Shown here: positions 9,211 through 50,641 of the stretch, one piece after another
How the letters are laid out: every line of letters begins with the position of its first letter
Position numbering within the stretch: the stretch's first letter is position 1
Assembly (NCBI GenBank): GCA_032622095.1
Contig: CP136065.1
Coordinates: 207,182,151-207,246,150 of the forward strand
Length of the DNA stretch: 64,000 nucleotides
Reading direction: 5' to 3'
DNA from: Siphonodentalium dalli
Taxonomy: Eukaryota; Mollusca; Scaphopoda; Gadilida; Siphonodentaliidae
Translations under genes and position numbers: made by a program
The notes under the pieces: generated by a model
Seen by the model: the letters and a program-made list of their open reading frames with translations, nothing else
Told to the model about the DNA's origin: nothing
The model's database searches: none

Positions 9211-9251
9211 AATGTCCATGATGTGGGATAATTTGATTGCACTAGAACCAC
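9211..9251 (+). CDS. Short candidate exon upstream of the Mab-21-like exon
   Basis: This 41-bp exon has a good acceptor (cattgcttttcag ending at 9210) and a consensus donor CCAC|GTAAGT at 9252. Read from the ATG at 9212 it gives MSMMWDNLIALEP and leaves one base (C). The Mab-21-like exon at 18071 needs exactly one base: C+GT makes Arg, followed by ELCWRYSP. The phase match and strong sites support it as the N-terminal exon of that gene, either initiating at 9212 or continuing an exon with a two-base overhang. It is short, so a chance coincidence of sites cannot be excluded. Confidence 0.45.
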
Positions 9252-9693
9252 GTAAGTACTTGATAATTTGCCTTAAACATTCAAAACAAACACGTGTGTT
9301 GTTACTGAGACAATGCTGCGCTCATCTTACAACCATGTATTCCCAACATCTTAGCAAGGCCAGAACAATACAAATATGTAAATATGTGGGCCTATAAGTT
9401 AGAGGTATACTGGTATCCATTGTTTTTCTAAGGTTATGTGAGAAATAAGTACCGGTATTATATATGTTATTGTTGCATCAATCTTTATGTATATTCGCCT
9501 GTATATTCGTCCATGTTCGAAAATTTGTTTTCCAACTTCATCCTAAGTCGGCATATCTCTATCAAGCCAACAAACTTTTGTCGGTTTCGCGTAACACCGA
9601 AATAATATACGATAATTTATTAATATTTCGTGGTAGAATATTGTTAATCAAATGTAAAAAAATTGAACCCAAATAAACATATTGCCTCAATTC

Positions 9694-9979
9694 TTAACCG
9701 ACTAAACTTTAGTTAAAAGTAACTAAATTAATTGTGTCTGCCAATATTTGGTTACAATCAACCCAATATTTAGTATAGTTCCGCAACCCAATATTGGGTC
9801 ACCCAATGGTATTTAGTTACAACATCTGGCTAAATATTTAGGCATTTTGAACTGAATTAATTGGGTAATCAAATATTTAATGTTGAACAAATTGGGTATG
9901 GTCTGTAGTTACGGAATGTATCCGAATGTTTAGTCATTTTGAACTGAATTAATTGGGTAATTAAATATTTAGTCGTTAA
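9694..9979. repeat. Inverted-repeat (MITE-like) element
   Basis: The ends are imperfect inverted repeats: TTAACCGACTAAA at the left, and TTTAACGACTAAA on the complement of the right end. TTAA is present at both edges. An internal block (ttttgaactgaattaattgg) occurs twice, near 9848 and 9942. Non-coding; the family is unclear. Confidence 0.45.
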
Positions 9980-12009
9980 ACTGAAAAAAGGTCAGTAAGG
10001 TTTGGTGAGCAGTGCCCCTTCTAATGGGAGTGTTTCAAAGTTTAACTGAATATAACAAAATGAAATATTTAATTCGCCATTGCAGAATCATCCAAAAATC
10101 AACAAAAAATATTCTTGCAATTAGTTCTTTATTTACAAAATAATACTAAAGGAAATATAATATTTGTCTTTGTTAATTTGAACAGCAAAGTATGTATCAA
10201 TATCCACCAAAATATTCCTTCTACTAATACATTTATACTAATAAAACTCAGTACTTAAAGATAATTATTATAGATATTAAATAGTTTCACCCTGCCCGCT
10301 GAATCCTGGATACCAATTGCCAGATAGGTGAATCATGAGCACCAGTTAAGAAAATATGGAATTACAAGACAATAATTTCACACTGATATCATAGTTTCCA
10401 CACTTGAAGAGATCTGAGATTGAACTACATCAAAATATATAATTTGGGCAGGAAAATACTAAACAATTGAACAACTTCGTGCTATAAAACCTGAGTACGA
10501 GCCTTTCTGTTGAATCCTGAATAGCAGTGTACACTGTCGTCTTACCCCTTGATATTTTCCCCCGTGGGGAAATATATCTTACGAAATCTTCACCACCACC
10601 CTGTATATACCCTACCACCAATGACAAAAATTAGTTTGACTTCATAGCCTAAAATCCTGAGAATAAAAATTATTTTTGACAATAAATATAAAACTCTATT
10701 TTGTTAAACCTCCAACTCACCCAGCAGCTATATGACAAACACATATCTTATGATTTTATTGCTTTTGCTTTATATAGTCATGACATAGCAAACAACGTTT
10801 CCCGGTAAGATAATAGCAATATGTTGAGTCAGGCTTTGGTATGGGCAGATTATCTTGGCCCCATCCCCCCACGGACATCTACATGACAATATTATTTTTT
10901 GCTTATTTTGCTTTATATAGCCATGACAAATCAAGAAATTGTCATATGTAGCTGATGGGCTGCGTGGTGAGAATTTGTTCATACATACTGAAGCAATGAA
11001 CACTCCCGATTAGTCCGTGCTTCCATAAATATGGTATACTTGATGCAATATAATCATAAGCATAAGATGACAGTTTTGCCATATCTATCTGCTTTGGGGG
11101 ATATCCGAAGATATCCAGGAAAATAAGCATATACAATTATAGGATTTTCTGTCACATGTAGACTTGTCAGTGGGTGGGGTTGGGTGGGGTAACACAATTG
11201 ACTTGAACCAAACTTGTTCTGGAATATAGTTTTCTTGGCATTTCATGATAAACTAATAACATAGTAAATGAAATTATTTGCTGGGGTGCGGTATATCCAT
11301 GGTGAGAGAAGGTATCCTACTGGGCCAAGACATGCAGGGAGAGGAATATACCATGTTACACCAGATAAATTAAACATATGAATCCCGTGTACCAGTTTAA
11401 CACTAACTGAATCACTTTGATTATTCTTAAAACTAGTATTAATGCAAGTTAAATTACTATGAAAGTGTCATAATGGGTTAACAGTTTGTAGAACCATCGT
11501 CACTAAGAAAAACATGGAAAATAGATAGACTTTGTTTTTACTTTAACATTGAAAACTCTTCAATGACGACAGATCACAGGAAACAGCCTTCTTGTGTAAA
11601 CTCTTCGCTGTAACAGTACTAATTTCATAATAGCGGTTTAAACACGTGAACTCTCGTTCTTGGAGTTACAAGTAATAAGAGTCAGGTCAATGTCGACTTA
11701 TTTTCCATTTTTTTATTTTACCCATTTACCCACTGCAAGTGCCTCATGTCTCATTACATATAGGTAGCACGGGAGCTTAAATGTTAAAAGTAAACAATCT
11801 AATTCGATGGTCCCCGTATCTTCAGATTCCAACATGCCTTCAAAAGACGATTTAGTTATAAGAATCGATTAAATACCAAAACAATAATGATAACCACTGT
11901 ATTGCTGACAATGATTATGCCACCGTAGTCGGCATAATAATCTCTAACTTTGTGTTTTTAATTTGCTCAACTAAATATACAGACATCATCGTATTTAAGC
12001 CATGGATAT
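9980..12009. other. Non-coding stretch, probable intron
   Basis: AT-rich, with no frame above 77 codons and no recognisable domain on either strand. If 9211-9251 and 18071-19438 belong to one gene, this is intronic. Confidence 0.4.
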
Positions 12010-12711
12010 TCTACTATATATTTTGAGAACTACGTATATGTGTGTGTATATATATACTTTATAGAATCGAAAACGGCTGGACCGATCGAGACCAAACTTC
12101 CCATCTAAGGGTAAAAAACCACGGGAATGGTCGTTTTGTAGAAGCTCCGATCACCCGTTCTTCACTCCCAGTCACAAAAAACGACACTGTGGAGTTAATC
12201 GCGTTGATAGTTAAAGGGCGTTCGTATCCACAGTGTCGTTGATAAAGAGCGTATGCGTATAATGTGATTCTTACGTCTGGGTCCGGGCTTGAGCGTGACT
12301 GTATCCAGACATGAGCGTGTTGTGTGATTCTTACGTACTTAGGACTTCCTAGGAACGGGTGAAATTTTCATCGGGTCAGTTTTTCAGCACGAGGTGATCT
12401 TCACCTTGAAACGGGTACCCACAAATGATATATATGTGTGTGTCCTTTATAGACTCGAACCGATTGAGCTCAAACTTGCTACATACGGGAAGTATCATTG
12501 ACGGGTTAAATTGTGACCCGACCTGACCTTGACCTTGAAAATAATCAATTCAAGGTCAAATCGGGTAAAATTAAAAAACAAAAAATTAAATTAAAAAGGC
12601 ACAATTAACTCATTAAAAAATAAAAAATAAAATAAAAAAATTAATTAAAAAAATTAATTAAAAATTGGTATGTTTCTGACGATTGCCGCCAGTGGCGGGC
12701 TAACCTGCTAG
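12010..12711 (+). mobile_element. Helitron-like unit 1 (702 bp)
   Basis: Starts TCTACTATATATTTTGAGAA and ends with a short GC hairpin (GCCGCC-AGT-GGCGGG) ten bases before CTAG. This is the Helitron 3' architecture (hairpin then CTRR). A TG/TA microsatellite lies just inside the 5' end. Non-autonomous, with no Rep/helicase coding. First of five head-to-tail units; it is preceded by T. Confidence 0.75.
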
Positions 12712-14388
12712 TCTACTATATAATTTGAGACTTCCGTATATATATATGTGTGTGTATATGTGTACTTCATGGAATCCAAAACGCGTGTACAGATTGCGCT
12801 CAAATTTCGTATGTAAGTTTAAAATCCCACCGACACGGCCGTGATCGCGTTTTGGAGAAGCTCAGAGCACCGTCTCTCCCTTCCCAATCATCAAAATCAC
12901 CGCAATCGGCACTTCGGGGTTAATTGATATTCGCTCGCGATCCAAGAGGAGTAACTCTACATTTTTTTATATCTGTATATGTATATTTTTATATCCATAT
13001 TCACTTCAAACTGATAAACCCGTTGAGCCAAAACTTGCTAATACCTCGCAAAATATAGAATTTACATTTTCTGATATATACATTTTTTGTTACGGCTGAA
13101 AATCTTAGTCTATTTCCGAAACATTCAGATTTTAAAGTCTAAACTTGCACACCTCAATTCCTGCTAACTGACGCAGCTATATGGCAGTGCCCCAAACCGT
13201 GAACGCCAACGACATTGTTGGCGAGAAAATAGCCCCCAAGCCGTAAATATCAACGACATTGTTGGCGAGAAAAAAATAGCCCCCAAGCCGTAAATATCAA
13301 CAACAACGACATTGTTGGCGAGAAAATAATTAGTTCAAATTACTAAATACACGTTTTCGGCAATGTGAGATTTTTCGGGGAGCCGTGATGCCAACAACAA
13401 CGACTCGAAGCCGTGATTGCCAACAACAACGACATCATCGGGTCAGTTTTTCTAAATACACGCAATCCTATTTTCCCTTTTCGGCAATGTGATATTTTTC
13501 GGGGAGCCGTGATGCCAACAACAACGACCCGAAGCCCTGAATGCCAACAACAACGACATCATCGGGTCAGTTTTTTAAGTGAATCCAAGGCACTGCGAAA
13601 CGTCCCGAATCTGACGGGACTTCCACTGCCCAAAACCGTGAACGCCAACGACATTGTTGGCGATAAAATAGCCCCCAAGCCGTAAATATCAACAACAACG
13701 ACATTGTTGGCGAGAAAATAATTAGTTAAAATTACTAAATACACGCAATCCTATTTTCCCTATATGGCAATGTGAGATTTTTCGGGTAGCCCCGAGCCGT
13801 GATGCCAACAACAACGACCCGGGTTAATAGCATTGATATATAGAGCGTTCGGTTTCCGCAGTGTCTATATAACGAGCGTCGTTTTCGCTATCTACTTATC
13901 TGTATGACGGGAGTCGCTCGAAATATTTCGGACGGGTACGGCAGACTCGAAATATTATGCAGAGAGATTTCATGACATTAGGACGGGTACGGGCAGGTTA
14001 AAAAAAAAAAAAAAAACAAAGAATGTGTTGTCTGTCGTTCTCAATGGCCACGGGCAGGTTAAATAACGGGGAAGTTTAGGACGGGTACCATGAATTAACT
14101 CATTGAAAAACAAAGAATGCGTTGTCTGTCATTCCTAGGAAGGGGGGATTTCATCGGGTCAATTTAAAAAAACAATTAAATTATAAAAAAGAATTAAATT
14201 AAATTAATAATTAAATAAATATTCAAAAATTCAAAAAAACATAAATTAAATTTAAAAACATTAAATTAATATTAAAAAATTCAAAAAAACATAATATTAA
14301 AAATTAAAAAAAAATATAAATAACAACTAAATAATTAAAAAAATGTCATGTTTCGGACAAACGCCGCCGATGGCGGGCTAACTGCTAG
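12712..14388 (+). mobile_element. Helitron-like unit 2 (1,677 bp) with internal minisatellite
   Basis: Begins TCTACTATATAATTTGAGAC directly after the CTAG of unit 1 and ends with a hairpin plus CTGCTAG. It is the longest unit because of internal tandem repeats around 13190-13830, carrying motifs such as acgacattgttggcgag and atgccaacaacaacgac. Confidence 0.75.
13190..13830 (+). repeat. Minisatellite inside Helitron-like unit 2
   Basis: Repeated blocks of about 60-160 bp contain gccaacaacaacgac, acattgttggcgagaaaa and ttttcggggagccgtgat in shuffled order. Frames through it are repeat shadows, not genes. Confidence 0.7.
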
Positions 14389-18070: not shown

Positions 18071-19438
18071 GTGAACTGTGCTGGAGATATAGTCCAACAA
18101 ATATCAACCAACAACACGACCTGCTAAACCAGTCCTCAGAAGTAATGCCACTGCTCAAAGTGTTGGTGAATAAAATGGACAGTTGCAATGCTGTGGTCCG
18201 GCTGAAGATCCGAGATATAGCACATCAGCTGAATTTGGCAGCACCAGACACAGGAAGTATGCTATACAGCATGCTATGCTCCTTCCGTTCGGACTGTGAG
18301 GTGACCGATCGACCAAGTAGTCGTAGTGTCATAAATGATATACATAAATTGTTGCAACATGGGCTGAACTGTCTGACAGAGGATTTTCCAGTCATATTCA
18401 AGCACAGTACAGCAGTACTACTCGGGTCAGTAGCGGAAAAGACCAAAACTGTCAAGATGGATGAGGGAGATTTTGTCATTTTCCTGCCGTGGCTATATGA
18501 TCACCATACAACATACTTCCCGGTGTCTACACATATGTATCACTTCCTAGTCAGTCATTCATGTGCTGAGTATATTAAAAAAACAATGGTGAAAGCTAGA
18601 GGAAATACAGAAGTACATGGCGATGACGATGATGATGATGATGATGATGAAGAAGTGGGAGCATGCCTGAGGAGGCTCATAGTAGACTCGCTAATATGCA
18701 ATGTGAAGACAATACACAACCTTACATATATCAAGCAATGCAGCAGCCATAAAGCCACAGCTGTAACATTTGAACTCAACAACTCAGAACTCAAGCTCGA
18801 TATATCAGTCGGGATGATGGACGAGAAACTTACATCAATTAGAAGTGATCGACCGGTACAACCACTCAGTGAACAACCACCATTCGCATTCTACATTATT
18901 AACGATGTTGGAGATAGGTTCCTTTTGACAACAACGTTCGCTGAGTCCAGGCTGCTGCATGGTTTGTCGGGAACTGGTGCAGGGATGGCATACCAGCTCA
19001 CTAAATGCGTAGCTCATTATTTCCTCCCGGATTATAAACAGCTTGACTATGAGTGTCCAAAGGCAGTCTTCCCTTCATATCATATCAAACTGGCCTTATT
19101 TTATCTGCTGAAGCATTATGGTGTGGGAGAATCATGGTGCAGTGAGCAGCTGACTAACCGGGTTATGGAACTGGTCGCTGTGTATGCTCTATGTCTGAAT
19201 CAGGAGGCGACCCATAACATATTCCATGACATCGGAAGTACATTGTTGATGGAAGATATCCAGAAGATACTATGTTCATCTGATGTCTCTCGCCACAATG
19301 GTGGCCGATGGGATGGTACAATAGAAGAACATCGTGGTATATACTTGGATATATACCACTCTAATGAGGAATTGTGTCCCAGTACTCTGATGTTAGATCT
19401 CTGCACCTTACTATGGTCCATGCGAGTTACTCCTGCTG
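18071..19438 (+). CDS. Mab-21/cGAS-like nucleotidyltransferase, main coding exon
   Basis: The exon runs from acceptor tttcag (18070) to donor CTG|GTGAGT (19439); the frame is open from the acceptor. Numbered from the Met at 18145: a helical N-terminal part, then GS at 94-95 in LLGSVAEK, 11 residues later E107-x-D109 in DEGDFVIF, and a third acidic residue D219 in LKLDISVGM. This is the G[S]...[E/D]h[E/D]h plus distal Asp signature of MAB21/cGAS-family nucleotidyltransferases. All three metal ligands are kept, so catalysis is plausible. The C-terminal half has the family's helical pattern (FAESRLLHGLSG about 265-276; PSYHIKLALFYLLKHYG about 310-326). No cGAS-type zinc motif is visible. An Asp/Glu run at about 160-170 interrupts the core. 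Known relatives make cyclic (oligo)nucleotides on sensing nucleic acid, or are developmental MAB21 proteins; which applies here is inference. The stop shortly after 19438 is intronic. Confidence 0.85.
18625..18655 (+). repeat. GAT triplet microsatellite coding for an Asp/Glu tract
   Basis: A (GAY)n run inside the nucleotidyltransferase exon encodes nine Asp followed by two Glu. It sits between the metal-binding strands and the third catalytic Asp, probably in a surface loop. Triplet repeats vary in copy number without shifting the frame. Confidence 0.85.
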
Positions 19439-19490
19439 GTGAGTTACTGTTAATTTCATAACTTTCCTTACAAACTTTGAGATATAGTAA

Positions 19491-19546
19491 AACCTCTCCA
19501 AACCGAACACAGTTCGGACCAGCCTTTCTGTTCGGTTTAGAGAGGT
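19491..19546. repeat. Short hairpin resembling a DNA-transposon terminus
   Basis: AACCTCTCCAAACCGAACA is followed about 20 bases later by its near-complement. The motif resembles pogo/Tigger-type ends, but no partner end was found. Confidence 0.45.
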
Positions 19547-23179: not shown

Positions 23180-23230
23180 GGATAGCCTAATAGGGGATAG
23201 CCTAATAGAGGATAGCCTAATAGAGATTAT
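23180..23230 (+). repeat. Three-copy 15-bp tandem repeat
   Basis: Units of gatagcctaatagrg repeated three times in non-coding DNA. Confidence 0.8.
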
Positions 23231-27405: not shown

Positions 27406-27578
27406 ACACTATCACGGATAATGCCAGAGAGTTCACAAGAGAAATGGGTGACACAAATGTCTCACTTCCCAATAAATCCAAGGTCAGCTCAGCCAAACAT
27501 GAAAAGGACGAGACATCAAATATGGGAGATCATAAAGAAAATAAAAGTGTAGATGAAGTATCAGATGAGTTCCTACAG
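27406..27578 (+). CDS. Candidate linker exon, phase-compatible with the Mab-21-like exon
   Basis: The exon is bounded by acceptor ccacatcatcactag (27405) and donor CAG|GTTAGT (27579). The Mab-21-like exon ends with one spare base (G); joining it here gives G+AC = Asp and the frame continues TITDNAREFTREMGDTN to the end without a stop, closing at phase 0. The 57 residues are hydrophilic and rich in Lys, Glu, Asp and Ser (for example SSAKHEKDETSNMGDHKEN), which suggests a disordered linker. No domain is recognised. The sites and phase support an internal exon of the nucleotidyltransferase gene; other exons inside the 8-kb gap before it cannot be excluded. Confidence 0.6.
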
Positions 27579-31063: not shown

Positions 31064-31071
31064 GAGTCAAG

Positions 31072-31859: not shown

Positions 31860-32485
31860 GAGTTAAGTGTTGATACTTTCTGGACAAGCCGCCTCTGAAG
31901 TTGAGCTTCACTCCTGTCAATTTTATACCAATGAGGTCCAACTATTCAACTGTCATAATAATTATTTGCAGCACTATAAACAACAATCGTCACCTAATAA
32001 TGAACATAAATTTGGTGTTCAATTGGGCCATGGTGGTCTTTAGTCTAAACATATACCTCCAAGAACGACTAAGAACTGAAACTCAACAGATACACAATAT
32101 TTAATGAAATATATCTGTCAGCTTCGAATTCAAAGTACGTGAATTTGAAAATGAGCCAAATAGATATTACTGTGCTAATTTAAAGATGGATTATCTCTTC
32201 CTATTCATTCGACAAGTTTTAAATTGTTTCCTGGGTATAAACTAATAGTTAGGAACTTAAGACCTGTGTTCGGAAACGCTTCCATAAATTATATTTTGAA
32301 TATGTTCTAGTATGGACAAGTGTGATCATTTATCTAACGACCGTCAGTGGTTACTGTTAACAGAGACCAGAAATATTATTGTGTAATTGTGTCACAAATA
32401 AGCGTTAATTACTGTTAAGACTCATAACATATATATAACAATGTACTAAAACTGATGATACCCACCCTGTTTGGTCTCATTTCAG

Positions 32486-32538
32486 GAACGATAACTCTAT
32501 CCGAAGTACACGACCTATATGCAGTACATGGTGTTTGA
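32486..32538 (+). CDS. Possible alternative last exon of the Mab-21-like gene
   Basis: Acceptor ggtctcatttcag ends at 32485. Joined to the nucleotidyltransferase exon (one spare G), G+GA makes Gly and the frame reads TITLSEVHDLYAVHGV then stop at 32536-32538. The competing exon at 27406 also starts with Thr-Ile-Thr in the same phase, so the two look like alternatives. It cannot follow the 27578 donor, because a stop appears at the third codon. Evidence is splice-site quality and phase only. The exon begins 33 bp inside the left arm of the large palindrome, so an inverted copy exists near 46143-46196. Confidence 0.3.
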
Positions 32539-32644
32539 CCTATATTCTCCGCCCACGCGTCGGTCTATTTGTATACCGGTTGGGCATGTCCGGACATGAC
32601 CCGTTGGTTATATCCAATGGGATAATGTTAAAGTGACACTCGCA

Positions 32645-32945
32645 TTGAAAACTTACAAAAAATTCAAAAATTCAAAAACTTCAAAAATTTCAAAAATTTC
32701 AAAAACTTCAAAAACGTCAAAAACTTCAAAAACTTCAAAAACTTCAAAAACTTCAAAAATCGCAAAAAATTTCAAAAAAGTTTAAAAACTTCAAAATACT
32801 CAAAAATTTCAAAAAACTTAAAAAACTTTTCAAAAAGAAACAAAAATGAAAAACAGAAAAAAATTCATAAATTAAAAAAATATGAAAAACTTAAAAAACT
32901 TCAACTTTTTCTAAAATTCAAAAATACTTTAAAATTAAATTAAAA
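32645..32945 (+). repeat. ttcaaaaac-type short tandem repeat (left arm)
   Basis: About 300 bp of near-continuous ttcaaaaac/ttcaaaaat units; mirrored at 45736-46036. Confidence 0.9.
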
Positions 32946-33082
32946 TTAACTGTCTTTTAATATATCTAACCCACTGCCACTTCTAAGGGTTCCACACTAC
33001 ACCTGAGGGGATATTGAGTGGTCTACACACGTCTCCTAAACCCTAGAATAAGATCCAGCCCATAAGAAACACCGCCTCCTGC

Positions 33083-33205
33083 AATGCCTGTCATTCGAAT
33101 CTGACGCAATCCCTACTTCTGGCGCAATGCCTGAGTCATTCGAATCTGGCGCAATCCCTACTTCCGGCGCAACGCCTGAGTCATTGGAATCTGACGCAAT
33201 CCCTC
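33083..33205 (+). repeat. Tandem repeat of about 45-48 bp, three copies (left arm)
   Basis: Units carry cattcgaatctgacgcaatc-type sequence followed by cctacttcyggcgcaa. The frame reading PESFESGAIPTSGATPESLE is a repeat shadow. Mirrored at 45476-45598. Confidence 0.8.
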
Positions 33206-35289
33206 GCGAAACCTACCGGCTGACTCCACACCCATCGGCTAAACGTTGTATCACATGCTTATTATTTGATCATATCGTGGAAATTCAATGTTTTGTCATC
33301 ACTCATGAGATATAACCCATATCCACTGAAAAAGGGTGGATATCCTCTATTTATTTATAATTTTTTCTTTGTTATCTTTTTTTTATCCCTCTTTTTTATC
33401 TACCACTTCCTGTTTTTATTCGCTCTTCTTTTTCTTACAACTTCTAATCCCTCATAATCTTCGAATATCCACTTTCATCTCCAAGTTTTTGAAAAAATTC
33501 CTTGTTTAGTAGCACCTCCAGATGGGCTCTATAGAATTTGAACGAGGCATCCATCTTGGATATTACTCTTTCTATGACTAAATCCGTTAGCACGCTCTAC
33601 AGATATCATATAGGTAGCACGCTCTACAGATGTCATATAGGCCTCTTCACATCTTGTTTTCCATAATTTATTCATTCCTAATCGCTCCATTGACTGTAAC
33701 AAATTAAATTACCCCCTCCCCCTGTATTTAGAATACATCCTTGATTATTAATATTTCCTCCTTTCATGGTGTGCATGTTCCTTGGGACATCTTCGCTAAT
33801 GTGAAGCCACACCTATTATATATATATATATATACAACTTTAAAAGCCCGCGAAAATATTACTCATATTATAGACTTCCCTTTGAAGACCTTTGTATGTG
33901 ACAATGATCCGTAATATTGTTTCTAAGTGACACTGGCCAGTGAAACTGATACTACGGGTATGAACTAGCCAACTTCACATCGTAACAATAATAAAAGGGA
34001 CACTTCATCTATATCAGTCTCAAAACGTGTTGGTACACATCTGTGTGGAAACTAAAACCAATCACTCTTCGTCCGTCATCCGTACATAATTGTAATATAA
34101 TTTTCTCAGAAACCACGGGATCCCTTTGGCTGAAATTTGGTCTCAACATGGGATAAGAAATTATCCATGGAAGACAACAGTGTCCGTGTGGGGGAGAAGC
34201 TTCGTAGTGTTTCGCTGTCGCCATGGTGTTTGTTTGGGTATAGGCATGGGTGGTGAGTGTGGTTCTCATATGGTATGAACTAGCCTTTACTGACTGAGGT
34301 AATTTAGTGCACATGTCATCACTTCACTGATAACCATTATATGGTCAAATCCCTACACTATCAAACGCAATGTTTCAATAATGGGTTTTCTTAAAATTTT
34401 GACTAAATATTGGTTATATTATACGCATCAGCGATCCTTCTTAATAACGCTCTGTATATTTTCAAACGCATTGCACTAAATGGGTTTGGAATAGCCATAC
34501 AGGAAAGGAGAAACTGAGGTCCTGGGTAGGTCGACTGCATATAGCAGTATATATGGGGTACAGACATGGACAGCAATGGGTTCCTCGTGGCTTCTGGTCT
34601 ACACATGACATATTAAAGTTAACCACACCCATCGGCGCGCCTTTATTGGGCTATGAAGCGCCATACAGGCTCGAATCATGGCTTTCGCCATGTGTTTCTA
34701 TTTGAACCCACATTAGTAACTAAATAAAATCTTTCTCTCCAGGTTGTTTCACGCCATAACCTTGATTTGGAAAGCTTGAAGGGCTAATTAAGCTTCAATT
34801 TAAATCCCAACATTTTCTTATTTGAAGAACGTATCTGGTTAAACATGTCCACCATAGTAAGCTCATTTAATTCAAAGAGCTTCACACATAGTCCCACTAG
34901 TAATGATGTGTCGTTATTTACTACAGAAATGGTCATATAGAATACAATACAACACATTTTGGTCACATACCTTAAAGGTGCACGTCACTTTCGCAAGATA
35001 TCGAACTGACCATGTATAGAGTGGAATGACATGTCGGGTATCAAATGTATAATCAGTTCCAGTATTTCGTCCATAAGGCAGTTTTGGTTGTAACATCATT
35101 GTGTATGACGGTTCATTCATATGATATCTTAGCGGTTGCACACGATACTGTCTGTTGTATTTTATGTCTTATATCATGTATATTAATTGCTCCATGGATG
35201 GTAGGAGTATGGCATTGGTGTCTGGTTCTTCGATGTATTCTAGTCATAGTTCATTCATATTATTACTCTAAAATCTCCATTAAATGGAG

Positions 35290-36560
35290 AAACTAAAGAG
35301 CCCATATTATGTAGACTAGTGTATAAATACTTACTTCATGCATTATTTTTATCAATTATATGTATTATAACTCCCATCAAGATAGGCTGTTATACAGAGG
35401 AAACAAAGCATGTACCAAGTGACAGTCTGTACCAAGTGACAGTCTCATGTCACGAAAGGCCTACTATGTGGACACATTTTCTTATCAAAACGCTCTATTA
35501 TGTAGGGGGTTATCAACCATTGGTCTGGAAAAGGCATACGAGCGGAAGGCGTGTATACACATTTATTCGATGTACTCTTTAATCGTCGATTTCTCTTTAT
35601 TGTCGTTAATTTATAGCATTATTAGTAGGAATCTAAACTCGCCGTTATATTGAGAAAATAATGCGTCAATACCAGTCAATACTGCTTTATTGGCGGTAAA
35701 TGAAATTATTGAATCATGTATCGCAGCTAAACAAGCGAGACAACTGATCACAACACAAAAATTAGTAATATTTCTGAAGCCTTGAGTGGGTTGTAATACA
35801 CAGTGTAAATTTTCATTATTGCTACCATTTAAGGAAACATGCCCCCGATAGGGCTACTATGCGAACACATGTCTATATTAATTTCACATATTCCTTACCG
35901 TTCATTCATATATACTCCAAGCTCTCTGTTAATACAGAGGCATCAAAACATTGGTCTGGAAGAGACCTACTATGTGGATGCGTGTATACATATTTACTTG
36001 ATGTATTCTTTAATCGTTCATTTCTCTTTATTATCGTTCATTTATAGCATTATTAGAAGAAATTTAGTCTAAAATCTCCATTACATGGAGACAATAAAGA
36101 GCCCATATGGTGTAGACTAATGCATAAATACTTACTTCATGTATTCTTTTCACCAATTATATGTATTGTACATCCTATACATTTAGTCCGTTATACAGAG
36201 GAAACAAAGCATGTACTACGTGGCAGTTTCATATGACGATAAGACCTACTATGTGAACACATGTGCATATTAATTTCACATATTCTTCTCAAAACGCTCT
36301 ATTTTATACGGGGGGTATCAAACATTGGTCTGGAAAAGGCATGCTATGTGGACGCGTGTATACATATTGACTTCATATATGCATTCATAGTTCATTTCTC
36401 TTAATTGTCGTTCATTTAATAGCATTATTAGTAGAAATATAGTCTAAAACCGTCGGTATATGGAGAATATATAGCGTCAATACTGTTTTATTGTTGGTAA
36501 CTCAAATTATTGCATTATGTATCGCAACTAAACAAGCGAGATAACTCATAAATTCTTAAT
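35290..36560 (+). repeat. Tandem duplication of about 800 bp inside the left arm
   Basis: The block from gagcccatat..gtagactar at about 35300 recurs at about 36096, with aggaaacaaagcatgtac, ggtctggaaaaggcat and aactaaacaagcgaga landmarks in the same order. A partial third copy of the middle part lies at 35840-36060. Mirrored at 42121-43391. Confidence 0.75.
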
Positions 36561-37904
36561 AGTTCTGATGTCTATGGCAGTTCACACAGTGTATATTTTC
36601 ATTGTTGTTACCATTTTAGTGCATACATTACTGATTTCTGTGTAAGAACGCCGGTCTCCATTGTTGTTATGATTGTGCCTATAACTGTCCATATTCTTAA
36701 AGCAAGTACGGTACCTCTATGTGATATGATCTATAAAAATTTCCATTTTCACAGGTAAATCACGTATAAACGCTCTTTAATGTATAGTTAAACTGAGTTT
36801 TCACATGCAGGGCTATGTCTTTGTGGACTATATACGTGGTATACTTCAGTATATACACGAAGTGAATGTGTTCTAAGTATACGTATCTGATTTATGTATA
36901 CGTCCGTGTTTCTTAAAGCAAATCCAATACATATTAGTGCGTTATATTATGATGTACATTAAGTGCCCTTTTCACTGTTAAATCAAGTAAAAAGGCCCTC
37001 TACTATAGTTAACTATTCAGTTCCACGTACGCTATAAGATCTATGGTGGTCCGGTGTGTCTTATCAATATGCCATTATATGCACGAATGTAATGTGTTCA
37101 AATATGTGGGTTATGATGTATACTTTAATGTTAAAGTATATAAGCACTCTTTAAGATATGCATATGCAGAATGTTGCCTCTTTACACTGACAGAAAAAAA
37201 AGGAATATATAATTTTGAGTACTACTCTTCATAAAACGTTAGAAAACCATAATCTAACAACGAATATCGAAGAACAATGTAATTACTTGATAAGCATTGT
37301 AAATATTTCGTCTGTTTTAAATAAAATGGAAATATTTCGTCTATTTGAAATACAGTTGGAAGCAACAATCAAGTATTTAAATGAAATTTGGACCAAAATC
37401 TTATAATTTGAGAAAACGTATATAATTTCTATCGAAGTCTTATAATAAAGGAAGGCTTTGTGCGAATCCATTCGGTCTAATGTGTGAATGTGTTCATCAT
37501 CGCAAATATAATGATGCAGAAATGAATATTTCCTAGAATAATGTTAACATAGCTTGTATTTAACCGAAATAATATAGCATTTGAGTTAAAATGTTTCATA
37601 TTAGGACCATAACGAACCAATGCATAAAAATACAATATTTTGTTTTTCATTCTCGATCAAAATAATGCAGGGTTGTCAATTATCAACAAAAAACAAATAC
37701 TTTGAAACAAAAACGATGACATAAGAAGGAATATCCAAGAGCTAGTGTGAAAATAACCCTCACATTTATAAAAAAAAAACAATAAAATTAAAGTTTTCGA
37801 GTAAGTCCTTCAAATTTATTGAATTTTTTCGTCTATGTTGGATAAAATTTGACACAAAAATCAATTAGCTCACTAACAGTTCGCGCAATATCTCATATTT
37901 TGAG

Positions 37905-39050
37905 AAAACGTTTGCAATTTTAGACAACAATATTGCTAGTGAAGGTGAATATTTCATCCTGGAACTCATGAAATATGATAAAAATAGATGTAAAGACACT
38001 TCACGAGCCCTCATATATTTGAGTTATGAACATAAAGTCATCTCATAGTGCCATTGTACCCCATAATTTGGTCAGGAGAAATATGTATTTCATATTTGAC
38101 CCTTCATCTGTGGTAAAAAATGAATTAAGGGACATGGGAGTGGTGTCCCTGGACATTAACCTAGAGCATAAATTGACTCAATTATGCAATTTTAGGCAAC
38201 ATTCTTGCCAGGGAAAGTGTATATTTCATGTTGGAACTCATCCAATGTGATAAACATGCATCATAAGACACTTAATGAGCTCTGATGACTTTGAGTTATG
38301 ACAACAACGGCATCTCATACTAGATTGTAAGCCATAATTTGGTCAGGAAAAGTGTAAATTTCATATTTTATCCTACATGTGTTTTAACAATCAATGTAAT
38401 TACACCCCATCGGTCGCCTAGACACAGCGTAAATGTTCTCAAGTTTTCAATTGTAGGCCACAATGTCGGCAGTGAAGGTAAACATTTCATGTTGGAACCC
38501 ATGAAATGTGATAAAATGGATAAAAAGACACTTCCTGAGTCCTTATGACTGAGTTATGAACATAAAGGGAACTCATAGTGTATTGTAGGTCATAATTTGG
38601 TCAGGAAAATTGTAAATTTCATGTCTTAAGCTCCATGTGTTTTTAAAATATATGTAATTACAACCATTGGGTCCCTAGAGATCAATCCACAGTCCATGTG
38701 TAGTCCATATGCAATTTTAGGGAACAGTTTTGCTAGTGAAGGTGAACATTCCATGCTGGAACTCATGAAATATGATAAAAATAGATGAAAAGACACTTTC
38801 TGAGGCCTTGGTCGGGAGAAATGTGTATTGTATTTTGACCCTTGATGCGTGGTAGCAATCAATGAAATTACACCCCATGGTATCCTCAGATATGAAGCAA
38901 CATCATAAATGCACTCAGTTTTGGCAATTTAGACAACATTGTTGATGGGGAAGTTGTACATGTCATGTTGGAACTGGTGAAATGTGATAATAATTGATCA
39001 AAAGACACTCGATGAGCCCTGATGGGTTTCAATTATGGTCATAAAGGCAT
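37905..39050 (+). repeat. Tandem repeats of about 260 bp, four diverged copies (left arm)
   Basis: A cataatttggtcaggaraa landmark occurs near 38061, 38334 and 38591, and a shorter form (ttggtcgggagaaatgt) near 38806. Each copy also holds an atttcatgttggaac-type block and a tgataaa..aaaagacact block. Mirrored at 39631-40776. Confidence 0.8.
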
Positions 39051-39202
39051 ATGATAGTGTCATTATACAACGGGGAAATTTGGGAAGCGCTAACAAAGCG
39101 TATCTGCACGGTGTTATACGAATCAAAATGATCCTGATATAAGAAATGCAATCTAGATCATACTCAGTATCTTCGTATCGACTGAATATATCGTTATTCG
39201 AT

Positions 39203-39478
39203 GGTGTTCCTGGCATACCTCCGTCTTTACTTTTCTTATGCTTTTGTAGATTGTAGTTCGACGATAATATCTTTCTTCACAAATGGCACCCGTGTATTGT
39301 CTCGAATCATGGGAAGAACTATCGTCCTTATACCAGCGAAAAGATGAGCAAATATGGTGTGGTATTATAAACTCGCCGCGTTCGTACCTCTATTTATCGT
39401 TTAGAGTAATTGTTCTTAGATAAAAAAAAAATAGGCGCGGCGGCAGTGGGGATGGGGGGGCCGCACGCGCGCCTATAT
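39203..39478. other. 276-bp spacer at the centre of the palindrome
   Basis: Unique sequence between the arms. Its right end is unusually GC-rich (39434-39473, including a G-run and a cgcacgcgcgcc block), in contrast to the AT-rich arms. A 78-codon open stretch without ATG crosses the spacer and left-arm edge on the minus strand (39156-39389). No domain recognised. Confidence 0.8.
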
Positions 39479-42400
39479 ATCGAATAACGATATATTCAGT
39501 CGATACGAAGATACTGAGTATGATCTAGATTGCATTTCTTATATCAGGATCATTTTGATTCGTATAACACCGTGCAGATACGCTTTGTTAGCGCTTCCCA
39601 AATTTCCCCGTTGTATAATGACACTATCATATGCCTTTATGACCATAATTGAAACCCATCAGGGCTCATCGAGTGTCTTTTGATCAATTATTATCACATT
39701 TCACCAGTTCCAACATGACATGTACAACTTCCCCATCAACAATGTTGTCTAAATTGCCAAAACTGAGTGCATTTATGATGTTGCTTCATATCTGAGGATA
39801 CCATGGGGTGTAATTTCATTGATTGCTACCACGCATCAAGGGTCAAAATACAATACACATTTCTCCCGACCAAGGCCTCAGAAAGTGTCTTTTCATCTAT
39901 TTTTATCATATTTCATGAGTTCCAGCATGGAATGTTCACCTTCACTAGCAAAACTGTTCCCTAAAATTGCATATGGACTACACATGGACTGTGGATTGAT
40001 CTCTAGGGACCCAATGGTTGTAATTACATATATTTTAAAAACACATGGAGCTTAAGACATGAAATTTACAATTTTCCTGACCAAATTATGACCTACAATA
40101 CACTATGAGTTCCCTTTATGTTCATAACTCAGTCATAAGGACTCAGGAAGTGTCTTTTTATCCATTTTATCACATTTCATGGGTTCCAACATGAAATGTT
40201 TACCTTCACTGCCGACATTGTGGCCTACAATTGAAAACTTGAGAACATTTACGCTGTGTCTAGGCGACCGATGGGGTGTAATTACATTGATTGTTAAAAC
40301 ACATGTAGGATAAAATATGAAATTTACACTTTTCCTGACCAAATTATGGCTTACAATCTAGTATGAGATGCCGTTGTTGTCATAACTCAAAGTCATCAGA
40401 GCTCATTAAGTGTCTTATGATGCATGTTTATCACATTGGATGAGTTCCAACATGAAATATACACTTTCCCTGGCAAGAATGTTGCCTAAAATTGCATAAT
40501 TGAGTCAATTTATGCTCTAGGTTAATGTCCAGGGACACCACTCCCATGTCCCTTAATTCATTTTTTACCACAGATGAAGGGTCAAATATGAAATACATAT
40601 TTCTCCTGACCAAATTATGGGGTACAATGGCACTATGAGATGACTTTATGTTCATAACTCAAATATATGAGGGCTCGTGAAGTGTCTTTACATCTATTTT
40701 TATCATATTTCATGAGTTCCAGGATGAAATATTCACCTTCACTAGCAATATTGTTGTCTAAAATTGCAAACGTTTTCTCAAAATATGAGATATTGCGCGA
40801 ACTGTTAGTGAGCTAATTGATTTTTGTGTCAAATTTTATCCAACATAGACGAAAAAATTCAATAAATTTGAAGGACTTACTCGAAAACTTTAATTTTATT
40901 GTTTTTTTTTTATAAATGTGAGGGTTATTTTCACACTAGCTCTTGGATATTCCTTCTTATGTCATCGTTTTTGTTTCAAAGTATTTGTTTTTTGTTGATA
41001 ATTGACAACCCTGCATTATTTTGATCGAGAATGAAAAACAAAATATTGTATTTTTATGCATTGGTTCGTTATGGTCCTAATATGAAACATTTTAACTCAA
41101 ATGCTATATTATTTCGGTTAAATACAAGCTATGTTAACATTATTCTAGGAAATATTCATTTCTGCATCATTATATTTGCGATGATGAACACATTCACACA
41201 TTAGACCGAATGGATTCGCACAAAGCCTTCCTTTATTATAAGACTTCGATAGAAATTATATACGTTTTCTCAAATTATAAGATTTTGGTCCAAATTTCAT
41301 TTAAATACTTGATTGTTGCTTCCAACTGTATTTCAAATAGACGAAATATTTCCATTTTATTTAAAACAGACGAAATATTTACAATGCTTATCAAGTAATT
41401 ACATTGTTCTTCGATATTCGTTGTTAGATTATGGTTTTCTAACGTTTTATGAAGAGTAGTACTCAAAATTATATATTCCTTTTTTTTCTGTCAGTGTAAA
41501 GAGGCAACATTCTGCATATGCATATCTTAAAGAGTGCTTATATACTTTAACATTAAAGTATACATCATAACCCACATATTTGAACACATTACATTCGTGC
41601 ATATAATGGCATATTGATAAGACACACCGGACCACCATAGATCTTATAGCGTACGTGGAACTGAATAGTTAACTATAGTAGAGGGCCTTTTTACTTGATT
41701 TAACAGTGAAAAGGGCACTTAATGTACATCATAATATAACGCACTAATATGTATTGGATTTGCTTTAAGAAACACGGACGTATACATAAATCAGATACGT
41801 ATACTTAGAACACATTCACTTCGTGTATATACTGAAGTATACCACGTATATAGTCCACAAAGACATAGCCCTGCATGTGAAAACTCAGTTTAACTATACA
41901 TTAAAGAGCGTTTATACGTGATTTACCTGTGAAAATGGAAATTTTTATAGATCATATCACATAGAGGTACCGTACTTGCTTTAAGAATATGGACAGTTAT
42001 AGGCACAATCATAACAACAATGGAGACCGGCGTTCTTACACAGAAATCAGTAATGTATGCACTAAAATGGTAACAACAATGAAAATATACACTGTGTGAA
42101 CTGCCATAGACATCAGAACTATTAAGAATTTATGAGTTATCTCGCTTGTTTAGTTGCGATACATAATGCAATAATTTGAGTTACCAACAATAAAACAGTA
42201 TTGACGCTATATATTCTCCATATACCGACGGTTTTAGACTATATTTCTACTAATAATGCTATTAAATGAACGACAATTAAGAGAAATGAACTATGAATGC
42301 ATATATGAAGTCAATATGTATACACGCGTCCACATAGCATGCCTTTTCCAGACCAATGTTTGATACCCCCCGTATAAAATAGAGCGTTTTGAGAAGAATA

Positions 42401-45400
42401 TGTGAAATTAATATGCACATGTGTTCACATAGTAGGTCTTATCGTCATATGAAACTGCCACGTAGTACATGCTTTGTTTCCTCTGTATAACGGACTAAAT
42501 GTATAGGATGTACAATACATATAATTGGTGAAAAGAATACATGAAGTAAGTATTTATGCATTAGTCTACACCATATGGGCTCTTTATTGTCTCCATGTAA
42601 TGGAGATTTTAGACTAAATTTCTTCTAATAATGCTATAAATGAACGATAATAAAGAGAAATGAACGATTAAAGAATACATCAAGTAAATATGTATACACG
42701 CATCCACATAGTAGGTCTCTTCCAGACCAATGTTTTGATGCCTCTGTATTAACAGAGAGCTTGGAGTATATATGAATGAACGGTAAGGAATATGTGAAAT
42801 TAATATAGACATGTGTTCGCATAGTAGCCCTATCGGGGGCATGTTTCCTTAAATGGTAGCAATAATGAAAATTTACACTGTGTATTACAACCCACTCAAG
42901 GCTTCAGAAATATTACTAATTTTTGTGTTGTGATCAGTTGTCTCGCTTGTTTAGCTGCGATACATGATTCAATAATTTCATTTACCGCCAATAAAGCAGT
43001 ATTGACTGGTATTGACGCATTATTTTCTCAATATAACGGCGAGTTTAGATTCCTACTAATAATGCTATAAATTAACGACAATAAAGAGAAATCGACGATT
43101 AAAGAGTACATCGAATAAATGTGTATACACGCCTTCCGCTCGTATGCCTTTTCCAGACCAATGGTTGATAACCCCCTACATAATAGAGCGTTTTGATAAG
43201 AAAATGTGTCCACATAGTAGGCCTTTCGTGACATGAGACTGTCACTTGGTACAGACTGTCACTTGGTACATGCTTTGTTTCCTCTGTATAACAGCCTATC
43301 TTGATGGGAGTTATAATACATATAATTGATAAAAATAATGCATGAAGTAAGTATTTATACACTAGTCTACATAATATGGGCTCTTTAGTTTCTCCATTTA
43401 ATGGAGATTTTAGAGTAATAATATGAATGAACTATGACTAGAATACATCGAAGAACCAGACACCAATGCCATACTCCTACCATCCATGGAGCAATTAATA
43501 TACATGATATAAGACATAAAATACAACAGACAGTATCGTGTGCAACCGCTAAGATATCATATGAATGAACCGTCATACACAATGATGTTACAACCAAAAC
43601 TGCCTTATGGACGAAATACTGGAACTGATTATACATTTGATACCCGACATGTCATTCCACTCTATACATGGTCAGTTCGATATCTTGCGAAAGTGACGTG
43701 CACCTTTAAGGTATGTGACCAAAATGTGTTGTATTGTATTCTATATGACCATTTCTGTAGTAAATAACGACACATCATTACTAGTGGGACTATGTGTGAA
43801 GCTCTTTGAATTAAATGAGCTTACTATGGTGGACATGTTTAACCAGATACGTTCTTCAAATAAGAAAATGTTGGGATTTAAATTGAAGCTTAATTAGCCC
43901 TTCAAGCTTTCCAAATCAAGGTTATGGCGTGAAACAACCTGGAGAGAAAGATTTTATTTAGTTACTAATGTGGGTTCAAATAGAAACACATGGCGAAGGC
44001 CATGATTCGAGCCTGTATGGCGCTTCATAGCCCAATAAAGGCGCGCCGATGGGTGTGGTTAACTTTAATATGTCATGTGTAGACCAGAAGCCACGAGGAA
44101 CCCATTGCTGTCCATGTCTGTACCCCATATATACTGCTATATGCAGTCGACCTACCCAGGACCTCAGTTTCTCCTTTCCTGTATGGCTATTCCAAACCCA
44201 TTTAGTGCAATGCGTTTGAAAATATACAGAGCGTTATTAAGAAGGATCGCTGATGCGTATAATATAACCAATATTTAGTCAAAATTTTAAGAAAAGCCAT
44301 TATTGAAACATTGCGTTTGATAGTGTAGGGATTTGACCATATAATGGTTATCAGTGAAGTGATGACATGTGCACTAAATTACCTCAGTCAGTAAAGGCTA
44401 GTTCATACCATATGAGAACCACACTCACCACCCATGCCTATACCCAAACAAACACCATGGCGACAGCGAAACACTACGAAGCTTCTCCCCCACACGGACA
44501 CTGTTGTCTTCCATGGATAATTTCTTATCCCATGTTGAGACCAAATTTCAGCCAAAGGGATCCCGTGGTTTCTGAGAAAATTATATTACAATTATGTACG
44601 GATGACGGACGAAGAGTGATTGGTTTTAGTTTCCACACAGATGTGTACCAACACGTTTTGAGACTGATATAGATGAAGTGTCCCTTTTATTATTGTTACG
44701 ATGTGAAGTTGGCTAGTTCATACCCGTAGTATCAGTTTCACTGGCCAGTGTCACTTAGAAACAATATTACGGATCATTGTCACATACAAAGGTCTTCAAA
44801 GGGAAGTCTATAATATGAGTAATATTTTCGCGGGCTTTTAAAGTTGTATATATATATATATATAATAGGTGTGGCTTCACATTAGCGAAGATGTCCCAAG
44901 GAACATGCACACCATGAAAGGAGGAAATATTAATAATCAAGGATGTATTCTAAATACAGGGGGAGGGGGTAATTTAATTTGTTACAGTCAATGGAGCGAT
45001 TAGGAATGAATAAATTATGGAAAACAAGATGTGAAGAGGCCTATATGACATCTGTAGAGCGTGCTACCTATATGATATCTGTAGAGCGTGCTAACGGATT
45101 TAGTCATAGAAAGAGTAATATCCAAGATGGATGCCTCGTTCAAATTCTATAGAGCCCATCTGGAGGTGCTACTAAACAAGGAATTTTTTCAAAAACTTGG
45201 AGATGAAAGTGGATATTCGAAGATTATGAGGGATTAGAAGTTGTAAGAAAAAGAAGAGCGAATAAAAACAGGAAGTGGTAGATAAAAAAGAGGGATAAAA
45301 AAAAGATAACAAAGAAAAAATTATAAATAAATAGAGGATATCCACCCTTTTTCAGTGGATATGGGTTATATCTCATGAGTGATGACAAAACATTGAATTT

Positions 45401-46228
45401 CCACGATATGATCAAATAATAAGCATGTGATACAACGTTTAGCCGATGGGTGTGGAGTCAGCCGGTAGGTTTCGCGAGGGATTGCGTCAGATTCCAATGA
45501 CTCAGGCGTTGCGCCGGAAGTAGGGATTGCGCCAGATTCGAATGACTCAGGCATTGCGCCAGAAGTAGGGATTGCGTCAGATTCGAATGACAGGCATTGC
45601 AGGAGGCGGTGTTTCTTATGGGCTGGATCTTATTCTAGGGTTTAGGAGACGTGTGTAGACCACTCAATATCCCCTCAGGTGTAGTGTGGAACCCTTAGAA
45701 GTGGCAGTGGGTTAGATATATTAAAAGACAGTTAATTTTAATTTAATTTTAAAGTATTTTTGAATTTTAGAAAAAGTTGAAGTTTTTTAAGTTTTTCATA
45801 TTTTTTTAATTTATGAATTTTTTTCTGTTTTTCATTTTTGTTTCTTTTTGAAAAGTTTTTTAAGTTTTTTGAAATTTTTGAGTATTTTGAAGTTTTTAAA
45901 CTTTTTTGAAATTTTTTGCGATTTTTGAAGTTTTTGAAGTTTTTGAAGTTTTTGAAGTTTTTGACGTTTTTGAAGTTTTTGAAATTTTTGAAATTTTTGA
46001 AGTTTTTGAATTTTTGAATTTTTTGTAAGTTTTCAATGCGAGTGTCACTTTAACATTATCCCATTGGATATAACCAACGGGTCATGTCCGGACATGCCCA
46101 ACCGGTATACAAATAGACCGACGCGTGGGCGGAGAATATAGGTCAAACACCATGTACTGCATATAGGTCGTGTACTTCGGATAGAGTTATCGTTCCTGAA
46201 ATGAGACCAAACAGGGTGGGTATCATCA
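39479..46228 (-). repeat. Right arm of the 6.75-kb inverted repeat
   Basis: Reverse complement of 32453-39202, nearly identical over its full length. If the candidate exon at 32486 is real and oriented with the gene, the left arm is the ancestral copy and this arm the inverted duplicate. Confidence 0.95.
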
Positions 46229-46341
46229 TAAAACAATACAAATAATTAATCTGGGATTTTTAGCGTAACAATGAGAGAATTTTAATAACATATATCGCTA
46301 TCTGATATCGCCTAAACGGTCTGTTAAAAACAGTAGCTAAT

Positions 46342-47137: not shown

Positions 47138-47142
47138 CTAAT

Positions 47143-49414
47143 CCCAGTTGATCAGCGCACTATATAAGAACATATTCGAGAGAAAAAAATCAATATTAAT
47201 TGATATCTCCGGGCAGTGATGGTTCATAACTATTGTTTTATACCCATGAAATTATTTAGAACATTTTGTAGGAACAGATAATCCATCTTTAAATACGAGC
47301 AAGGTAACCGAGTGCCAGTTAAAATCGTGGGCTGATTTAACTATGCACAAAGCAATATTTCAATTAATAAACTGTTTGCTGTTTATTCAACAAGTTAGTT
47401 ACTGACCGACATTCGCAATTGCAACATCAATAAGAAAAACTACATAATAATCATATAAACGTTGCATGAAAATTCCGTTTAACCACGAACGCGATGTGGT
47501 ACCATGGTCGGCCGCATCTGGTGGTCAAACTAGTTAAAGATGGTCTATTAATTACACCACAGCTATATATATGGGGCAATGCATAATGTTGTTATCGAAA
47601 CATTTGTGACAATGAGTATTGAGAACCTTGTTAAGTCATCGACCAATTTTTATGGAGTTTGCTTATAACTGACTTGTGTTTCAATCCAGCTATCTGTGAA
47701 TGTTACTAATAGTGTTGTCATACATGTACAGTATAAAGATGTGATGTGCACCCACTAGAATGCATCAAGACAACAAGTGCACACGCGAGTAACTGGAAAA
47801 TTTCACGCCTGTCACATTTCATATCAAAACAAGTATTCCAATTCAAATGTTTTACTTTTTAAATACTTTGATTTATCAGCTTTGTTCCCGTGTGTCTTAA
47901 AATGTGAGGCCCAATTCATATGATTTAGAATGGTCGAAATTTGTATTACTCGTAATCCAAAAGCTTGCTTGAAATAATTATTTTTAAATATAGATGCAGT
48001 TAGTAGGTTTGTTCTCATTCAACAATGCGTCAAAATTACACCTGTGTTTTCATTTACCTCTAATAGATAAACACAAATGATTGTTCAATAATTCAGCACT
48101 ATGATGCAGTTATGCATGTGTGTGGGCCTACTGACTACTGTTTATGTACATACAATATGTAAGTACATAATAAACATGTATACTTGAGAGAACATTACAT
48201 GTGTTGCTATTATGCCAAATGTCCATCTTCAGAAATTACCCGATTCCCTGTATCACGATACATTGAATTGCTGCAACCGAGCATTGTTACTTAAAACTAG
48301 GTGGCATACACCCATCATGTATTTATGGAAATGTGGTTCAAATATCCGCGAGAGCACCCAGAGCATGTGTTTGTGCCATTATGTGTATGTCGAAGTTCGA
48401 ACATAACTGTTGTGGTATAACTGTTAATTCTACGATATACTGTGGTATAGGGCAATACAGTCCAGTAAATCTAGTAAATTTCTCAGTATAACCTTTCAAT
48501 CTAAGACGCACATGAGTTTGTCGTTAAAGCGAGTAAAATATCAAATAAAAATATACAATTTAAAACAAACGCGCCAGCATAAAGACAACGTCATTACACA
48601 TAGCTATGTGTGTATAGCGGAGCGATATTTTAGGTGGCACGCTCGGTTTAAATTTAAATATTTTTAAATTTACATTTTACTTGTTTTAACGACATGCCCC
48701 TGTGACAAGCTTTAAGGTGCAGGAAACTATATGGTGCACTATTTGTTTCGCGGTTTATTACTGGTGACAACTCTGCTACCGGTATTTTACCGTAAAATTT
48801 ATAGGCTATATTTTACAGCGAAGATAAAAAAAACACAGGATGGTCTTCAGAATCCAACGTGGTCATATGAAAATGTAGTGAAATGGCTGGGATTATCGAT
48901 TTGTCAGCCTTGTCTGACTAATATAAATATTTTAACGGGTTGTAAGAGAGGGATCTTTAAATTTCTTGACTATTGAAATTCTGTTTGTTTGAAGATTTTG
49001 TATATTTTTATTTTAAATATTGTCAGTAAATAATTATTCCGTGTCTTTCAAAATAAATCAGAATTTTGTTAAAGTATTGGTTGAACGATAATAACAGACA
49101 TTATAACTGGTTTGTTTTCCGTGAAGTTGAAAACACAGATTGTTTCTGGAAATGATCGTTAAATATATAGAACGAAGTGGGCGAACTGGTTAACGTTATT
49201 ATTATCTGAATAGTTAATGAGGAGTTTGGTAATACACAAAATATTGGTCCCGCTGTAAAAAAAAAAAATGGTAATATCCCCTGGGGATAAATACCAGATA
49301 CACCAATTTATTATATACTTGCCCATGAATTATAAGGTTTTAGCAGTAAGATATAATTGATATCAGGTATTAAGGTTGCATGTACCTCTATTACTTTCTC
49401 ATCATCCATTACAG
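47143..49414. other. Non-coding stretch before the propeller exon
   Basis: No recognised gene. The 81-codon frame at 48731-48973 has no family resemblance. The stretch ends with a pyrimidine-rich tract and acceptor ccattacag (49414). Confidence 0.5.
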
Positions 49415-50641
49415 CGCAAATCATGCCATGGCGGCCGATGGGTGGAACGTTCTGTAATCGCAGTGCTGTCCAGGTTAAAGAATCTGAGAGAGGGTCTGGA
49501 GTCCAGACATAATGTTATGGTTAGGACAAAGGAGGCGCTGCTGATACGAGTCATCGATAAGGAAGAATCACAAGAAGGTCCAATCGACCTATGTTGTCAC
49601 ACGTTAACGCAGCTACACATAACACTGACCAGAGCAAATAGGGAGGAAAGAGATGAACTGGAGGACAATGGCATCGCTCGAGACGGTCACTCCCAAACAG
49701 AGCTTCACATAGCTCTGTCTGGAGTGAACTGGGCCGAAGGAGAGAGGCGACAGGATTATAACGTCGCTTGGTATGGTATAGGTAAGGAGTGTGGAGCCTT
49801 CAAACATGATGGTGAAGATCACATACAGGTGAGATACATCGACCCGACGGCGGCCTCCGACCTCATCATCGTGGTTAGTGATGGTGAGTTAATACATAGG
49901 AAGGAGGAACGAGGCTGGAGTACAGTGGCCGAGTCCCCGCGGTTACCAGGTAAGGCAAGTGACATACACGTGATGAGGGACTCTGTATATGTCAGCCTCG
50001 AGAACATACCCGAGATAGCTGTGTATGATATCGTAGGCCTCCGTCACGTGGGCACGATCCCGACACCTGGGAGGTGCATGAACCTGGTGAGTATAGCTGA
50101 CGATCTCCTCGTTACTTTTCGTGGAGACAGCCGAATCAAGAGGATGACGGATCACGGCGTCGTACTCAGCGAGTCATGGGCTGTATTCTCAATGTGTGGT
50201 GAATTACATCTCGCTGCTTCGGAGTCAGGAGACCTCATCGTGGTGTGTGACCGAAGTGGACATTCTGTGAGCATCATCACAGGTGATATGCAGAGCTTCC
50301 TACACATCGTAATGGGGATGAGTGATCGTAATCGGACTGGTAAGTCCGTTCTGCTCCCCCGTGGAGTGACGGCTGATAATGCGGCACCTACCATCTCACA
50401 TCACCGGGACCTGAGTTGTCCAACAGGGATATGTATCAACCGGGACCGCGTGTTTGTATGTAGCTGCTGGGGACACGCTATAATAGAGATAATGGTCCGG
50501 CCCCCGTACACAACGAGCACGCTACTGACTGAGAAGGATGGGATAACATGGCCGCGGTCAGTATCATACAACAGTCACTTCCACCGACTCGTCGTGGGTG
50601 GTTATGAGGATGCATCTTATGTACCGATCACGGCAGGGTAG
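49415..50641 (+). CDS. NHL-like beta-propeller exon with a tandem 30-residue repeat
   Basis: Starts after a strong acceptor (ctctattactttctcatcatccattacag) at phase 0 and ends at a TAG (50639-50641), giving 408 residues. Numbered from the first Arg: residues 12-45 look helical. Residues 65-91 and 95-121 are two copies of a repeat with the pattern T.LHI.L...N..E.....D...A..G. From about 145 to the end the sequence shows recurring beta-blade patterns (SDIHVMRDSVYVSL 182-195, MNLVSIADDLLVTF 222-235, LHLAASESGDLIVV 264-277, PTGICINRDRVFVC 336-349, WPRSVSYNSHFHRLVV 379-394), as in the six-bladed NHL/TRIM-type propellers. Such propellers usually bind RNA or protein. The first Met lies 35 residues in, so an upstream exon is expected; the 27406-27578 exon fits in phase. 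No RING or B-box is present. GC content is visibly higher than in its surroundings, as expected for coding DNA. Confidence 0.75.
   Translation, partial: RKSCHGGRWVERSVIAVLSRLKNLREGLESRHNVMVRTKEALLIRVIDKEESQEGPIDLCCHTLTQLHITLTRANREERDELEDNGIARDGHSQTELHIALSGVNWAEGERRQDYNVAWYGIGKECGAFKHDGEDHIQVRYIDPTAASDLIIVVSDGELIHRKEERGWSTVAESPRLPGKASDIHVMRDSVYVSLENIPEIAVYDIVGLRHVGTIPTPGRCMNLVSIADDLLVTFRGDSRIKRMTDHGVVLSESWAVFSMCGELHLAASESGDLIVVCDRSGHSVSIITGDMQSFLHIVMGMSDRNRTGKSVLLPRGVTADNAAPTISHHRDLSCPTGICINRDRVFVCSCWGHAIIEIMVRPPYTTSTLLTEKDGITWPRSVSYNSHFHRLVVGGYEDASYVPITAG

Follow-up and report, generated by a model that had tools for sequence, protein, structure and literature searches.

Do a cGAS-like nucleotidyltransferase and an NHL-like beta-propeller, encoded by exons about 30 kb apart in the genome of the scaphopod Siphonodentalium dalli, belong to one protein or to two? 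The question is raised by the stretch of 64,000 nucleotides analysed here (the window), for which a preliminary description had proposed four exons joining in phase on one strand, with a product of about 935 residues. Both the exon structure and the size of the product were borne out. The exons (Table 1) are bounded by canonical splice sites (9251^gtaagt; tttcag^18071; 19438^gtgagt; cactag^27406; 27578^gttagt; ttacag^49415, with ^ as the exon boundary), and together they form a 2808-nt frame of 936 codons including a single terminal stop (50639-50641), hence 935 residues. The joins are in phase as first described, and the boundaries were corrected in that exon 2 ends at 19438 and exon 3 comprises 27406-27578 inclusive. 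Exon 2 leaves one spare base at 19438 and exon 4 is entered at 49415 in phase 0. If exon 3 is skipped, exon 4 is read out of frame and a stop is reached at residue 502 (about 33 codons on), so an exon with a length of 2 mod 3 is needed between them. The interval of about 30 kb from exon 2 to exon 4 was scanned for internal exons of 120 nt or more that are entered in phase 1 behind a pyrimidine-tract acceptor and left in phase 0 at a donor; exon 3 alone was returned, with two alternative donors. The start codon is the ATG at 9212, or at 9218/9221 as in a paralogue. Because exon 1 carries an acceptor of its own (tttcag^A, directly 5' of it), the transcript probably begins with another exon, and an upstream non-coding one is likely. 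No Rfam RNAs or tRNAs were found in the window.

Table 1. Coding exons and active-site motifs of the cGAS-like/propeller gene, in window coordinates
Feature	Position	Strand	Description
Exon 1 (5' coding exon)	9212..9251	+	MSMMWDNLIALEP + 1 spare base
Exon 2	18071..19438	+	Mab-21/cGAS-like nucleotidyltransferase core and helical lobe
Active-site motif D-E-G-D	18460..18471	+	First two metal ligands, E and D
Third metal ligand region L-K-L-D-I	18790..18804	+	
Exon 3	27406..27578	+	Charged linker, 173 nt (2 mod 3), phase 1 in, phase 0 out
Exon 4	49415..50641	+	Coiled-coil-like start, short 30-residue repeats, NHL-like beta-propeller, stop TAG

The enzyme exon has about 47 matches in the host genome (2.23 Gb in nine contigs), and the propeller exon has about 45 close matches, plus weaker ones to other propeller genes. 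Thirty-three enzyme exons have a propeller exon downstream of them, within 165 kb and on the same strand, and no case of wrong strand or wrong order was seen among neighbours within 300 kb. Matches unpaired within 300 kb number 14 of 47 for the enzyme and 12 of 45 for the propeller. By a rough estimate, random placement would be expected to yield about 0.1 such pairs, although the observed pairs descend from one another and are not independent. Distances among 15 enzyme exons are strongly correlated with those among their paired propeller exons (Mantel r = 0.885, P = 0.0001).

Paralogues with identities of 67% to as little as 39% preserve the splice sites and phases. The acceptor (tttcag^GTG-like) and phase-1 donor of the enzyme exon were found in all twenty close copies examined, the spare base being A in one close copy (L016), and the same boundaries were seen in diverged copies with readable boundaries (39-51% identity). 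Paralogues of the linker exon with the same phases lie downstream of enzyme exons with few exceptions, and sit between the enzyme and propeller exons wherever both flanks are known; reading the introns of two deeply diverged genes revealed no recognisable linker exon. The linker has a dN/dS of about 1 and is thus without sign of selection. A homologue of exon 1 with the same donor (ACgtaagt) was found upstream of one paralogue only (C5:260M).

The two halves might instead be adjacent genes, conserved as neighbours but transcribed apart, an arrangement that would accommodate how far apart enzyme and propeller lie in many copies (6-161 kb). However, the enzyme exon has no conserved stop among the paralogues and ends in a conserved phase-1 donor, and the propeller exon opens at a conserved phase-0 acceptor and has no early Met that the paralogues share. 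Furthermore, the middle exon restores the frame, and order and strand are never broken among the pairs. We thus consider two separately transcribed genes very improbable. Judged from genomic sequence, one transcription unit is by far the simplest reading of the pairing, splice, linker, exon-1 and divergence data, and a single mRNA would then cover both halves; the fusion proposed at the outset is supported by the 33 ordered pairs, the kept splice sites and phases and the correlated divergence of the halves.

Many family members are located near contig ends (for example C3:0.26-9.6M, C7:0.06M, C9:0.9M, C1:275-277M, C6:232M), positions that suggest a subtelomeric expansion. In one diverged lineage (L071, L073, L075, L079), a donor-like site (e.g., cctcccag^gt) lies close to the end of the propeller exon, just ahead of the stop, so an additional C-terminal exon is possible in that lineage.

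The domain calls for both halves were upheld. Exon 2 matches Pfam Mab-21_C above the cut-off (2.8e-6), and each of the 18 sequences in the close alignment matches it with an E-value no higher than 0.1; the Pfam N-terminal Mab-21 domain was not detected in exon 2. The best PDB sequence matches of the enzyme half are cGAS and cGAS-like receptor 1 (cGLR1), both weak (E 0.02-0.08). These weak alignments (E 0.02) cover both the core and the lobe of cGAS, and place GS and E-x-D at the cGAS positions. Profile comparison with other Mab-21 proteins of the same genome gave weak similarity. AlphaFold2 models of single exons, made without an alignment, had mean pLDDT values of 31 and 34 (34 for the enzyme exon), too low for use.

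The active-site residues are G118, S119, E131, D133 and D243 (exon numbering from 18073), and the metal triad described earlier as E107/D109/D219, numbered from the Met at 18145, holds. All five residues are invariant in a 13-member alignment reaching 39% identity; across the paralogues the first ligand, E, is nearly invariant and both D are invariant. Compared with the strict cGLR motif, h[QT]GS[X8-20][DE]h[DE]h[X50-90]h[DE]h (Li et al. 2023; PMC9980059), the GS, a spacer of 11, the E-x-D and the D are present, whereas Leu replaces Q/T and the second spacer is 107 (91-118 in relatives, against 50-90 in the motif).

These departures could be explained if the Mab-21-type half were a catalytically silent scaffold that leaves the work to the propeller and synthesises no second messenger: Leu stands throughout at the Q/T position, the spacer before the third Asp is long, and one paralogue (L012) has lost the Glu. 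Nevertheless, the GS, E, D and D are otherwise retained even at 39% identity, and in recent copies the motif regions vary less than most of the enzyme, which makes a silent scaffold unlikely. To our knowledge, activity is likewise unestablished for the developmental Mab21 proteins. An enzyme that would be active is the reading followed here; the genome also holds at least 150 Mab-21_C exons and 8 STING_LBD exon matches.

The beta-propeller begins at about residue 128 of exon 4. An NHL repeat was detected in 12 of 16 paralogues (best 1e-4), the copy in the window scoring 19.3 bits, just under the cut-off of 20, and profile matches in the PDB are the NHL domain of Thin (1.2e-4) and TRIM2/TRIM3 (about 0.01). 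By NHL repeats and homology to solved NHL propellers, the domain is an NHL/TRIM-type beta-propeller. The N-terminal part of a TRIM protein was not found, there being no Pfam match to RING or B-box in the enzyme exon, exon 4 or the linker. The two 30-residue repeats of the preliminary description are present in this copy and in some diverged paralogues, and most close paralogues have one.

The propeller is related to those of single-ORF TRIM-like genes of the same genome (hhalign, 99.4%, E 5e-21). These genes consist of a Cys/His-rich start, a long middle stretch and the propeller, and their start looks B-box-like (Pfam zf-B_box E 0.42, in one gene). The family under study shares with TRIM2/3-like proteins, Thin and the TRIM-like genes L062 and L063 the propeller homology and a coiled-coil-like stretch before the propeller. 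Unlike TRIM-type proteins, it has an enzyme in place of the B-box/RING at the N-terminus, and unlike the family, L062 and L063 each consist of one ORF and lack an enzyme exon. From these comparisons, the propeller may have been acquired from the TRIM-like stock of the same genome. Clusters of single-ORF TRIM-like propeller genes (about 500-570 aa), weakly similar to exon 4, occur at C7:18-26M and 112-114M, and L063, a similar gene, is on C2.

Amino-acid change among recent copies was found to be uneven. Variable patches were defined on one random half of the copies and measured in the other half. The pN/pS was 3.9 in the enzyme patches against 0.84 in the rest, and 1.44 in the propeller patches against 0.68 in the rest, with pN exceeding pS in 40 of 40 splits; these simple counts treat related copies as independent and take no account of gene conversion or alignment noise. 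In separate enzyme lineages, the same enzyme patches have a pN of 0.32 and a pS of 0.23, compared with 0.20 and 0.31 elsewhere. The replacement peaks of the propeller have an autocorrelation maximum at 42 residues (0.33), about one blade, and this periodicity of about 42 residues suggests a variable propeller face. Replacement-rich patches are as expected of a pathogen-sensor repertoire.

It is probable, in our judgement, that the locus is a single protein-coding gene of a large paralogous family, encoding a cGAS-like receptor, a charged linker with a coiled-coil-like segment, and an NHL-like propeller, with a product proposed to be read by STING. Under such circumstances, the ligand, either a foreign molecule or a partner protein, would be bound by the propeller and/or the variable surface loops of the enzyme, the coiled coil perhaps helping as an oligomerising part. 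Binding would order the active site, and the GS/E-x-D/D site would make a cyclic dinucleotide to be read by STING. The family is best read as an expanded, diversifying set of cGAS-like receptors with an added binding domain. More tentatively, it may form a lineage-specific repertoire of dozens of cGLR-propeller receptors, partly subtelomeric, in which a hypervariable propeller face and enzyme loops would sense diverse ligands and trigger cyclic-nucleotide synthesis, possibly in an immune role.

Among known cGLRs, 87% are stand-alone enzymes, and the fusions named are with ankyrin, TPR and death domains or of several cGLRs (Li et al. 2023; PMC9980059). The same study reports cGLR radiations in bivalves, which the numbers of Mab-21_C and STING_LBD exons seen here resemble, and Stylophora cGLRs fused to ankyrin repeats or death domains. 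The words "NHL" and "propeller" are absent from its text, its supplementary Table S2 aside, and no fusion of a cGLR or Mab-21 protein with an NHL domain or propeller is named in the literature searched; a paper on the hoary bat that holds both terms is, by its abstract, unrelated. The architecture is better called unnamed in the text searched than unknown. Like the cGLRs of that study (PMC9980059), the present family has a Mab-21/cGAS-type nucleotidyltransferase with a helical lobe, the order GS/E-x-D/D, a large radiation in one genome and STING homologues in that genome, but it differs in the NHL-like propeller at its C-terminus. It also resembles the Stylophora fusions (PMC9980059) in adding an interaction domain to a cGLR core, although the domain is another one and several dozen paralogues share one fusion here.

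The family thereby adds an architecture to those named in the papers searched, and its enzyme has retained a dedicated propeller across deep divergence, with change concentrated in patches of both parts. As far as we know, most animal cGLRs have neither an added domain nor a known ligand. The family offers a testable handle on how expanded cGLR repertoires gain new ligands.

The copy in the window may itself be functional or decaying. A real fusion of which this copy is a decaying or silenced member would account for the loss of the last propeller strand (RILIYQ, the closing strand present in nearly all relatives, is absent from its C-terminus), and some other paralogues are decaying, with stop codons, a frameshift or a linker exon that carries an insertion. 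In addition, a palindrome of 13.8 kb in intron 3 would fold back in the pre-mRNA. On the other hand, the enzyme and propeller frames are open over 455 and 408 codons, all four exons have usable splice sites, and the dN/dS of this copy against its paralogues is 0.42-0.63 for the enzyme and 0.44-0.50 for the propeller. We consider decay or silencing of this copy rather unlikely.

The palindrome (window 32453-46228) is perfect, with arms of 6750 nt that are 100% complementary and 276 nt apart, and no ORF of at least 120 aa was found inside it. A 1-kb probe from the arm gave 1101 candidate sites; at least 40 of those scored are 100% identical to it and lie on contigs C2 to C8, mostly as inverted pairs about 4.9 kb apart. 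A probe from the palindrome centre found copies on all nine contigs, with the two arms nearly meeting. Given its many genomic sites, the palindrome is unlikely to be an assembly artefact, and it has the look of a very young mobile element with giant inverted repeats. A family of short repeats with inverted parts was also observed, at 3757-4209, 57037-57306 and 60268-61352 of the window and in the paralogous loci L010, L050 and L059, with the L050 copy placed where the linker exon of the C6:216M paralogue ends.
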